Program-made: the position numbers and the translations under genes | Assembly (NCBI RefSeq): GCF_003797185.1 | Contig: NZ_RKMH01000018.1 | Coordinates: forward strand, 1 to 64,000 | Direction: 5' to 3' | Source: Gordonia oryzae | GTDB lineage: Bacteria; Actinomycetota; Actinomycetes; Mycobacteriales; Mycobacteriaceae | Length of the DNA stretch: 64,000 nucleotides | Part shown: piece by piece, positions 45,557 to 47,978 of the stretch | How positions within the stretch are numbered: position 1 is the first letter of the stretch | Layout: each line of letters starts with the position of its first letter | Notes under the pieces: model-generated | What the model was told of the DNA's origin: nothing | Database searches by the model: none | The model's input: only the letters and a program-made list of their open reading frames with translations

Positions 45557-46060
45557 ATGGCAGGGCGGAGCATGCGTTTCGATCCCATCGCCGAGGCGAA
45601 GGACAACTGGGCCGAGGCCGGATGGGGTGACGTCGCCGATGGAATGGTCGCCGTCACCTCGGTGATGCGCGCCCATCAGATTCTGTTGGGACGCGTCGAA
45701 ACTGCCTTGCGCCCTTACGATTTGACGTTCTCTCGCTTCGAGTTGCTCCGTCTGCTCGCATTCTCGCGGCACGGCGCCCTGCCGATCACGAAGGCCAGCG
45801 ACCGACTCCAGGTCCACGTCACCAGCGTCACCCACGCGATCCGTCGACTCGAGGAGGCGACGCTTGTCCGGCGGCTGCCCCACCCCACCGACGGCCGGAC
45901 CACGTTGGTGGAGATCACCGACCTGGGGCGTTCCACCGTCGAGGACGCCACGACAACACTCAACCGCGAGGTGTTCGCCGACGTCGGCATGGACGGCGAC
46001 GAGATCCGGGGTTTGGTCGGCGCCATCCATTCGCTGCGTCATCACGCGGGGGATTTCTGA
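45557..46060 (+). CDS. MarR-family regulator
   Basis: The 167-residue winged-helix protein has LRPYDLTFSRFELLRLLAFS, the recognition region ITKASDRLQVHVTSVTHAIR and the wing VRRLPHPTDGRTTLVEITDL, as in MarR/SlyA proteins. It is a single gene; its 3' end faces the DUF559 gene across a 49-bp palindrome. The target genes cannot be told. Confidence 0.86.
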   Translation: MAGRSMRFDPIAEAKDNWAEAGWGDVADGMVAVTSVMRAHQILLGRVETALRPYDLTFSRFELLRLLAFSRHGALPITKASDRLQVHVTSVTHAIRRLEEATLVRRLPHPTDGRTTLVEITDLGRSTVEDATTTLNREVFADVGMDGDEIRGLVGAIHSLRHHAGDF

Positions 46061-46079: not shown

Positions 46080-46128
46080 GATCAGTATGACAATTCCGCC
46101 GGATTCCGGACGAAACGTCATACTGATC
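46080..46128. repeat. 49-bp palindromic repeat, copy 1
   Basis: Arms GATCAGTATGACAATTC (46080-46096) and GAAACGTCATACTGATC (46112-46128) pair at 15 of 17 positions around a 15-base centre (CGCCGGATTCCGGAC). It lies between the convergent MarR and DUF559 genes and reaches into the DUF559 stop codon. A near-identical copy lies at 47048. Confidence 0.85.
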
Positions 46129-46996
46129 ACGCCGCCGACGAGCGCAGGGCAGCCGCGACCTCCGCGGCAACCTGGTCGGGGCGATCGATGAGGTCGGCCC
46201 ACGTGTAGTTGAGTACCTGCCAGCCGGACCGAATCAGGGCATTGCGTTTGGTGCGATCACGCTGAAAGGCGACCGCGTCACGGTGGTAGGCGAAACCATC
46301 GATCTCCACCGCGACCTTCTGGTCGGGAAACGCGAAGTCGATCACGTACCCGCACGTCGGCAGGTTCGCCACCCAGCCGGAAACACCGGCCGCACGAAAG
46401 ATCTTCACGGTGAGCCGCTCGGCTTGCGACCGCGCGCCGTCGCCGATGAGCCTCAAGTAGGCCGACGTCTTGGCCGCGCCATGCCGCTTCGGGTAACGGG
46501 CATGAACGTCGGCGAGGGACTGAGGGGTCACTCGCCCGGACAACAATGCCGAGTCCATGAACGACAGTCCCAGGGCAACTGACGCTTCGAGCACCGTGAG
46601 ATCGGCCGCCGTCGTCCGAAGGCCGTCGTGCACGACGATGTCGTCGTCATGGAGTTCGCGATAACGGGTCACCGCCGTCGCCGATGATCGGCGAGCGCGG
46701 CCTCGGGTCTGAGTGAAGACCAGGTGTTTTCGCGGTTCCTCGGAGCACAAGCCGAGCCACCACGCTGCCGCCGCGCCACCCAGAACGGCATTCCTGTGCA
46801 CCGAGAGCACCGCGATCCGCGCTTGCGCCCGAGGACCCCGGGCGTGTCCGGCGACGAGGTGAACGCCGTGCGCCACTTCTTTCCACGCGCCGGACGCCAC
46901 GCGTCGCGCGATGGCCGACTCGCTCACACCGCAGTCCAGCGCTTCTCTTGTGGTGAACACGCCGTCGCGACGGACCGACAACTCGTGAATGTCCAT
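46127..46996 (-). CDS. AbiEi-antitoxin-like N-terminus with DUF559 (Vsr-like) domain
   Basis: The 289-residue protein starts with a winged-helix domain of the AbiEi antitoxin type (RRDGVFTTREALDCGVSESA, RRVASGAWKEVAHGVHLVAG). Its C-terminal domain has CGYVIDFAFPDQKVAVEIDG followed by RDRTKRNALIRSGWQVLNYT, the DxxxxxxxxxxEID core and basic helix of the DUF559/very-short-patch-repair endonuclease fold. ATG 46996 is chosen; ATG 47032 is a longer option. No AbiEii toxin partner is adjacent. The gene is enclosed by two copies of a 49-bp palindrome. Confidence 0.8.
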   Translation of the reverse strand: MDIHELSVRRDGVFTTREALDCGVSESAIARRVASGAWKEVAHGVHLVAGHARGPRAQARIAVLSVHRNAVLGGAAAAWWLGLCSEEPRKHLVFTQTRGRARRSSATAVTRYRELHDDDIVVHDGLRTTAADLTVLEASVALGLSFMDSALLSGRVTPQSLADVHARYPKRHGAAKTSAYLRLIGDGARSQAERLTVKIFRAAGVSGWVANLPTCGYVIDFAFPDQKVAVEIDGFAYHRDAVAFQRDRTKRNALIRSGWQVLNYTWADLIDRPDQVAAEVAAALRSSAA

Positions 46997-47047
46997 GGGG
47001 ATTGGACGCGAGCAGACCGCATCCGGTTCCATCGGCGACGTCGTCGT

Positions 47048-47096
47048 TGATCAGTATGACGTTTCGCCCGGATTCCGGAGGAAACGTCATACTGAT
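47048..47096. repeat. 49-bp palindromic repeat, copy 2
   Basis: Arms GATCAGTATGACGTTTC (47048-47064) and GAAACGTCATACTGATC (47080-47096) pair perfectly over 17 bp around GCCCGGATTCCGGAG. It lies 52 bp upstream of the DUF559 start and 12 bp past the mmsB stop. The right arm is identical to that of copy 1. Confidence 0.88.
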
Positions 47097-47108
47097 CAAC
47101 GGCTGACC

Positions 47109-47978
47109 TCAACGCAAGGTCGTGATGATCGCCGAAAAATCCAGTCCCGCGTTCTGCTCGGCAAAGGCCCGATACAGTTGCGCCGCATGGGTTCCCAGTG
47201 GGGCACGGGAACCGGTGTCGGCGACGGCGTCCATGGCCAGGCCGAGGTCCTTGTTCATCAGCGCGGTGGCGAAGCCGGGCGTGAACTCGTTGTTGGCCGG
47301 CGACGCCGGCTGCGGGCCGGGCACCGGACAGTTGGTCTCGATGGCCCAACAGTTTCCGGTCGCTCCGGTGACGACGTCGTAGAGCGCCTGGTCGGAGAGG
47401 CCGAGTTTCTCGGCGAGGACGAAGGCCTCGCCGACGGCGATCTGCTGCACGGCCAACAGCATGTTGTTGCAGACCTTCGCGGCCTGTCCGGCACCGGTGT
47501 CACCGCAGTGGATGATCTTGCCCGCCATGGGATCCAGGGTGGTGCGCGCCGCGGCGAAGGCCTCCTCGCTGCCGCCGACCATGAACGCCAGGGTGCCCGC
47601 GGCCGCGCCCTTGACACCTCCCGACACCGGGGCGTCGACCTGCGCGAAGCCGAGATCACCAGCGCGCGAATTGATCTCACGGGCATCGGCGACCGAGATC
47701 GTCGAACTGTCGATGAACAGCGTTCCGGTGGCACTCGCCGGGAGGATCTCGTCGTAGAGTTGCTTGACGATTGCGCCGCTGGGCAGCATCGTGATCACGA
47801 CCTGCGCGACCGCAACGGCTTCCACCGCGGTCGGGAAGGTCTCGACGCCGGTCTCCTGCGCCGCTTTCACCGCCTCGGGCACCGGATCGAAGCCGTGCAC
47901 CGTGTGCCCGGCCTTGACCAGGTTCGCCGCCATCGGCCCACCCATGTTACCCAGCCCCAGAAAGGCGATCGTCGTCAT
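47109..47978 (-). CDS. mmsB: 3-hydroxyisobutyrate dehydrogenase
   Basis: The 289-residue enzyme has the Rossmann loop IAFLGLGNMGGPMAANLVKA, the substrate-binding VDAPVSGGVKGAAAGTLAFM and the catalytic GAGQAAKVCNNMLLAVQQIA with the active-site Lys. It oxidises 3-hydroxyisobutyrate to methylmalonate semialdehyde in valine breakdown. It is the last gene of the mmsA-acyl-CoA dehydrogenase-mmsB operon, the order known from mycobacteria (Rv0753c-Rv0751c). Confidence 0.93.
   Translation of the reverse strand: MTTIAFLGLGNMGGPMAANLVKAGHTVHGFDPVPEAVKAAQETGVETFPTAVEAVAVAQVVITMLPSGAIVKQLYDEILPASATGTLFIDSSTISVADAREINSRAGDLGFAQVDAPVSGGVKGAAAGTLAFMVGGSEEAFAAARTTLDPMAGKIIHCGDTGAGQAAKVCNNMLLAVQQIAVGEAFVLAEKLGLSDQALYDVVTGATGNCWAIETNCPVPGPQPASPANNEFTPGFATALMNKDLGLAMDAVADTGSRAPLGTHAAQLYRAFAEQNAGLDFSAIITTLR

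Follow-up and report, generated by a model that had tools for sequence, protein, structure and literature searches.

A nuclease gene between matching palindromes in Gordonia as a probable selfish, homing-endonuclease-like cassette

A locus of Gordonia oryzae raises the question of why a single nuclease gene lies between two near-identical palindromes, and whether gene and palindromes move together. The locus is part of the window, which is the whole stretch of 64,000 nucleotides that was analysed. Its left neighbour is a MarR-family regulator gene (45557..46060, plus strand) and its right neighbour is mmsB, which codes for a 3-hydroxyisobutyrate dehydrogenase (47109..47978, minus strand). These two host genes, convergent with each other, border the insertion site and are separated by the nuclease gene (46127..47032, minus strand), as had been stated in an earlier reading made from the sequence alone (the sequence-only reading). 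The downstream palindrome (46080..46128), which is of the GTATGAC type, is located between the convergent MarR and nuclease genes and covers 2 nt of the stop codon at 46127-46129, into which that reading had it reach. The upstream palindrome (47045..47101), near-perfect and 57 bp long, is found in the gap that separates the nuclease start from the 3' end of mmsB. The longest open reading frame of the nuclease gene starts at 47032, and a conserved methionine at about 46996 is probably its conserved start; the earlier placement of a palindrome 52 bp upstream of the start holds for this methionine but not for the start of the reading frame, which is about 15 bp away.

The claim that near-identical palindromes enclose an AbiEi/DUF559 gene is confirmed by 50-bp copies with 90% identity as direct repeats (46080-46129 against 47049-47098). 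The copies are also 90% complementary (46080-46129 against 47048-47097), because each of them is itself palindromic. The 47045-47101 copy has arms of 28 nt that agree at 93%, and the 46080-46128 copy is a less perfect palindrome, with a left arm that reads ...TATGACAATTC; the right arm is common to both copies, as previously noticed, with GAAACGTCATACTGATC exact in both. When folded as RNA, the downstream and upstream copies have energies of -31.5 and -42.8 kcal/mol (z of -6.5 and -11.1), and a strong hairpin is present in each of five palindrome copies folded. In the genome of the window, the arm is found 8 times with at most 2 mismatches, which corresponds to both palindromes of the cassette plus two lone palindromes; a reversed control pattern of the arm is found 0 times. 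These counts, together with the fact that hairpins on both sides are common at DUF559 genes and rare elsewhere, argue that the window palindromes are not due to chance. A terminator scan that requires a T-run detects nothing at them, and Rfam yields no family at its gathering score.

Matching flanks recur throughout the gene family to which the nuclease belongs. DUF559/AbiEi-type genes are matched in 215 of 298 genomes of the order and in 51 of 59 Gordonia genomes, where a protein search gives 149 matches. Of the latter, 110 were read as loci, those omitted being mostly fragments, stop-bearing and lowest-scoring copies, and the flank and hairpin statistics cover 104 of the 110, with genes shorter than 260 aa or with stops left out. 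When the two flanks are compared with each other, with no palindrome assumed, 83 of the 104 Gordonia genes score at least 22 and 21 are below this threshold, against 35 of 586 random intervals and 5 of 116 ordinary genes that reach it; at a score of at least 28, the counts are 72/104 and 0/116. Hairpins with a score of at least 9 are present on both sides of 47/104 DUF559 genes, 1/586 random window intervals and 1/116 other genes, and on at least one side of 82/104 DUF559 genes against 48/586 random intervals, which leaves 22/104 genes with no such hairpin on either side. The long hairpins of the Gordonia loci are often located near the stop codon on one side and, on the other, some 50-170 bp ahead of the start, and their sequences vary among lineages yet agree across the two sides of a gene. 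Beyond the genus, a score of at least 22 is reached by 36 of 39 loci from Mycobacterium, Mycolicibacterium, Rhodococcus, Rhodococcoides, Williamsia and their kin, and by 19 of 26 loci at the order level, including five from two other families, with slightly wider flanks in both tests than in that of Gordonia.

The palindrome type goes with the gene, and the palindromes change with it. The two palindromes of one locus have a median identity of 90% (n = 47), against 44% between loci; the minimum of 0 within a locus is probably a hairpin shorter than the required 30-bp overlap. In same-site pairs, palindromes agree better within a locus than between loci in 66 of 80 cases. The other 14, in which agreement between loci is equal or better, are mostly close relatives with orthologous cassettes, and thus offer no indication that the two copies are homogenised rapidly.

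Two observations concern relatives outside Gordonia. A DUF559 gene of family f14 (L349), which belongs to the same order but is far from Gordonia, is flanked by a nearly identical pair of 67-bp palindromes. In Mycobacterium and Mycolicibacterium (L279 and L307), an AT-rich palindrome, TAGTAATCAATCAAACGATTGATTACTA, lies about 37 bp 3' of the cassette gene; it is distinct from the flanking pair and has a relative in L284.

Comparison of related genomes reveals that the gene and both its palindromes vary together as a single block, which is present, absent, inverted or replaced. Between the window (G000) and Gordonia polyisoprenivorans (G034), identity is 95.9% up to 46073 and 95.5% from 47057 on, whereas the cassette in between has 73.9% identity and is aligned in reverse, with breaks at the palindromes. 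Flanks of 95.7% against a gene of 73.9% indicate a recent replacement that was independent of the flanks. The other near relative, G028, carries the cassette version of the window, with a gene identity of 98.8%. The alignment with G. polyisoprenivorans, along with empty and occupied sites, delimits the cassette, composed of palindrome, nuclease gene and palindrome, to 46080..47101.

The same pattern is seen at other sites. Out of 347 same-site pairs compared, which are not independent of one another, 35 have flanks of at least 91%, and in 25 of these 35 the gene is at least ten points lower or unalignable. Examples are the pairs G036/G031 (flanks 96.9%, gene 75.8% over 256 bp) and G075/G078 (95.5% and 73.1%) at site s2, and the flipped pair G013/G017 (93.6% and 67.7%) at site s3. 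The gene keeps pace with its flanks in G008/G079 at s5 (95.1% against 93.1%) and in G027/G080 at s13 (92.1% against 97.4%). In 11 flipped same-site pairs (both edges readable in 10, a single edge in one), the high-identity flanks stop -23 to +30 bp from the outer palindrome edges. The break of the same-orientation pair G036/G031 is 11 bp before the left palindrome; most of 14 same-orientation pairs have no usable breakpoint, because one long alignment runs through. Ordinary homing often leaves a co-conversion tract; no clear one is seen in the same-site comparisons.

These breakpoints bear on the idea of a host-useful defence gene that resides in hot spots and is swapped by ordinary homologous recombination via the flanking genes, with the hairpins as insulating terminators. 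It is in keeping with this idea that different occupants are found at shared gaps between genes and that PADLOC AbiEi models match the N-terminal part of the protein. We nevertheless regard it as decidedly improbable, since the breakpoints of flipped pairs are at the palindromes and not in the flanking genes, orientation is free, the palindromes change along with the gene, an AbiEii partner is absent beside it, and several cassette gene copies contain stops or are reduced to remnants.

The 110 Gordonia loci form 36 flank clusters, of which 18 have two or more loci; a few clusters could be joined by related neighbour genes, because loci are linked by the similarity of either flank. Both orientations occur at 8 of the 18 shared sites, with no inconsistent edge among 348. 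At the mmsB site, 17 cassette loci are known, in which the gene is tandem to mmsB 8 times and convergent with it 9 times. Among 30 mmsB loci read, 13 have the gene (one with a stop), 2 have remnants (G008 and G022) and 15 are without it, with a gap to MarR of down to 22 bp, and both empty and occupied alleles of this one site are present. The comparison of mmsB-MarR synteny that the sequence-only reading had suggested thus reveals gene-free sites, and a gene that is always present between unchanged flanks, which that reading had set against its own proposal, is contradicted by gene-free and inverted sites alike. Its proposal of a small mobile cassette is borne out by the fact that one site is seen empty and occupied, and with the cassette inverted or replaced, and mobility of the cassette is well supported.

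A gene tree of 103 of the 110 loci, evaluated by a quick method, follows the sites for the most part: it needs at least 20 site changes for the 18 sites, where 17 would suffice if each site were one clade, and 9 orientation changes were counted over six sites. Exchange at fixed sites therefore fits better than free transposition. An exact empty-to-full junction was not found, the occupied and empty gaps being too diverged for exact alignment. No target-site duplication is callable at RecQ (G000 and G034 occupied, G028 empty), at recX or at two G027/G080 sites, where gaps are too diverged or contain unrelated inserts; in G080, the G027 site 3113316 is taken up by about 1.3 kb of other DNA.

Some intergenic gaps contain further repeats. 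On the MarR side of the mmsB cassette of L161 (G016), two tandem palindromes, in place of a single one, are visible by eye at the distal end and are perhaps the trace of a second insertion. In two related species, short CGCTGGTCGAGC / GCGCTCGAGACTGCCGACTGG-like repeat arrays fill the mmsB-MarR gap (L156 and L157, from G079 and G008) and the gap 3' of RecQ (L187 and L190); these repeats are another dispersed intergenic family.

Palindromes that flank the gene also occur alone in the same genome. Five types, every one of which is carried by cassettes, were searched in the 59 Gordonia genomes with up to 3 mismatches; each occupies at most 11 places per genome, and genomes with any lone copies have 1-9 of them. 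The GTATGAC type is present in 15/59 genomes, 10 of which have an intact GTATGAC cassette at mmsB, 2 a decayed one (G011 and G022) and 3 a cassette of another type at mmsB (G017, G018 and G034). Its lone copy at recX is common to G028 and G034 and decayed in G000, which suggests that it is probably an older type displaced in G034. The GTAGTACGAACCG type is confined to G027 and G080, with 11 places each, 2 of them at the cassette, and none in the other 57 genomes, and the GGTTGCCC type to 4/59 genomes, all of which have the cassette of that site, one with a stop. The GGTGATG type occupies 4 places in G034, 2 of them at the cassette, and one each in G028 and G000, which are without that cassette. 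Lastly, the GTTGCG type is found in 8/59 genomes, among whose loci read such a cassette is present in G017, G018, G030 and G067 and absent from G001, G021, G065 and G073. Lone palindromes in genomes without a matching cassette imply that lone copies outlive or precede cassettes.

At site 9, a GTTGCG lone palindrome is found in G001 and G021, and a CAGAGTG-type cassette in G013, G017, G067 and G011. A degraded CAGAGTG copy can be recognised by eye upstream of the GTTGCG palindrome in G001 and G021, and also in G013, which looks like one cassette displaced by another that later lost its gene. Similarly, the lone palindrome of G027 at 299287 is located where G032 carries a cassette. A test of 68 places, duplicates among them, gives 3 lone palindromes, from 2 distinct sites, whose flanks both match those of a cassette site; matches of one flank only (29-54% identity) are excluded from this count.

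Two general claims about lone palindromes were rejected. That they are deletion scars in general is unsupported, as none of 60 loci has a DUF559 gene at the recX or RecQ lone-palindrome sites. Compensatory change is not a general feature either: in 13 orthologous pairs of lone palindromes, with 8 bp beyond the core included, 283 base pairs were counted, of which 2 have compensatory change and 39 are paired in one copy only; one compensated change is seen by eye in the pair L385/L021. As a separate observation, a long composite palindrome (GCAAACCCACCCCTTTTCGGC...), unlike the cassette types, lies just 3' of a RecQ-like gene at the same place in three species (L200, L201 and L205, from G065, G030 and G073), with a less perfect relative in G022.

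The notion that the palindromes are REP-like and kept with this gene family, which the sequence-only reading had also offered, is supported by the recurrent matching flanks and the lone copies of cassette-borne types. A palindrome at many unrelated sites had there been named as a counterargument, and this applies only in part: lone copies do exist, and every type searched is cassette-borne. The dispersed copies lead to a related explanation, REP/MITE-like transposition, in which the palindromes would be mobile ends that form single-stranded DNA hairpins, and the nuclease would be a RAYT-like transposase spreading both the cassette and empty palindromes. The resident type at 11 places in each of G027 and G080, the strong hairpins of all five folded copies and the two orientations at one site would suit such an element. 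We consider it unlikely, given an EDxHD-related DUF559/MTES_1575 domain in place of a tyrosine HUH domain, the low copy number and the largely site-specific gene tree.

The placement of the palindromes is biased. Among 34 lone copies (orthologous duplicates included), 22 lie in convergent gaps, 10 in tandem gaps, 1 in a divergent gap and 1 inside a called open reading frame. With duplicates removed by hand, 15/26 unique lone sites are convergent, against a baseline of 26/121 gene pairs, and 19/30 classified cassette sites are between convergent genes. This enrichment, and the many palindromes that abut stop codons, would be expected of twin bidirectional terminators of a fast-evolving resident gene, with nothing mobile. 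Such an explanation is very improbable, as none of the 116 ordinary genes has matching flanks at a score of 28, the T-run scan is empty at the palindromes, and gene-free sites and inverted cassettes exist. The strength of the hairpins and their placement at convergent stops are consistent with a side role as bidirectional terminators.

The encoded protein of 301 aa consists of an AbiEi_4 winged-helix part, a middle region and a DUF559/MTES_1575 (Vsr/EDxHD-like) domain, and AbiEi_4, DUF559 and MTES_1575 are its only Pfam matches above the cut-off, in line with the antitoxin-like helix-turn-helix and Vsr-like endonuclease fold described beforehand. The helix-turn-helix region (residues 17-60; 46853..46984, minus strand) is assigned by Pfam and by weak PDB matches of the N-terminal part to AbiEi- and AbiGI-type N-terminal parts (E 0.008). 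The endonuclease domain (residues about 196-298; 46139..46447, minus strand) is assigned by Pfam and by the residues E205, D232, E243, H250 and D259, which are invariant in 28/28 and 42/42 aligned homologues, with rows chosen to be free of stops; L289, L318, L319 and L320 are absent from alignment A2, the omission of L318 and L320 being needless. The family profile matches PDB 3hrl (E 5.8e-11) and 3r3p, a 'Mobile intron protein' (E 1.9e-4), which we take to be the catalytic domain of I-Bth0305I. An antitoxin role, at which the first reading hinted, is unsupported: no AbiEii-type partner gene adjoins the nuclease gene, whose neighbours are MarR and mmsB, and no AbiEii model is among the PADLOC hits of 4 proteins. 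As regards carriage, there is no phage match; 4 plasmid matches were obtained, one of which covers 80% of the query with 36.6% identity, 13 loci match viral contigs in the C-terminal part only, and two weak PHROGs matches are to the nuclease part.

The AbiEi_4 domain and the long dyads, which would suit a dimeric binder, could also mean that an antitoxin-like protein regulates its own gene, with the palindromes as operators for its winged-helix domain. We give this hardly any credence, as one copy follows the gene and others are found by themselves at the 3' ends of unrelated genes. The rank correlation of palindrome type with protein identity is 0.17 for the helix-turn-helix part, 0.28 for the middle region and 0.29 for the nuclease part (78/104 genes), and it reaches 0.54 for the helix-turn-helix part only among 90 non-independent pairs at 65-85% identity.

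In our judgement, 46080-47101 is probably a selfish, homing-endonuclease-like one-gene cassette with its own palindromic ends and REP-like footprints, and this suggests a selfish mobile element of a hitherto undescribed kind. A homing-like nuclease that acts at long palindromes is the best reading that we infer from the invariant residues, the profile matches to 3hrl and 3r3p, and the long target of I-Bth0305I. The latter is an EDxHD enzyme that is reported to dimerise on a target of nearly 60 bp (PMC3943268); the cassette palindromes are about 35-57 bp. The protein would bind its own palindrome via the winged helix, probably as a dimer, and the EDxHD/Vsr-like domain would cut palindromes or target sites, either within them or next to them. 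When the cut is repaired with cassette-bearing DNA, an empty site or a resident cassette would be replaced in a homing-like exchange, and recombination between the two copies would flip the cassette or delete the gene, leaving a lone palindrome. The hairpins may double as bidirectional terminators, which would make insertion between convergent genes nearly harmless.

It is conceivable, at somewhat short of an even chance, that these cassettes constitute a separate class of bacterial selfish element, in which a fusion of an EDxHD nuclease with a winged helix recognises the end palindromes as a dimer and drives cassette exchange in either orientation at fixed convergent gaps. Palindrome types would displace each other in succession, and the lone palindromes specific to each type would be the fossil record of this in Mycobacteriales and related families. 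Genes of the DUF559/AbiEi kind are frequent in the genomes surveyed and are labelled as antitoxins or proteins of unknown function, so that a large gene family would gain a role if they are palindrome-ended selfish nucleases. One source of dispersed intergenic hairpins would also be explained, and natural long-target nucleases with known partner palindromes would become testable.

No description of a palindrome-bounded DUF559/AbiEi cassette was found in the portion of the open PMC literature covered, and the main text of a REP survey (PMC12306157), by a search for terms, names neither Gordonia, Mycobacterium and actinobacteria nor RAYT and endonuclease. With the type IV toxin-antitoxin system AbiE, the cassette protein shares the N-terminal AbiEi_4 domain of the AbiEi antitoxin, but it has a C-terminal nuclease domain and no AbiEii partner gene beside it. 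Insertion sequences and MITEs are short units with repeated ends, of which ends-only copies exist. The cassette resembles them in all three respects; unlike them, it has a complete palindrome at each end, fixed orthologous sites and no known transposase domain. No target-site duplication is seen in the gaps compared, which are too diverged for exact alignment.

REPIN/RAYT systems, as presented in PMC3116915, have a gene beside palindromic repeats that are also found elsewhere in extragenic space, and to that extent the cassette gene is alike. However, its enzyme is not a tyrosine (HUH) transposase, the Pfam matches being those to AbiEi_4, DUF559 and MTES_1575 only, and the cassette gene is itself subject to exchange between strains. 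According to PMC2817692, a genome usually has more than 100 REP copies, whereas the cassette palindromes of the types searched occupy at most 11 places. Free-standing EDxHD homing genes, such as that of I-Bth0305I, are similar in that nuclease-coding DNA is found at fixed sites with patchy presence, decay and replacement, and the nuclease domain of the cassette matches 3r3p by profile. In contrast to these genes, the cassette is located between bacterial chromosomal genes, is fused to an AbiEi-type winged helix, has its own palindromic ends and occurs in both orientations and with lone palindromes, and its cleavage activity is a putative one. If this reading is true, the cassette brings homing endonucleases and REP elements, both of them known ideas, together in a single compact unit.
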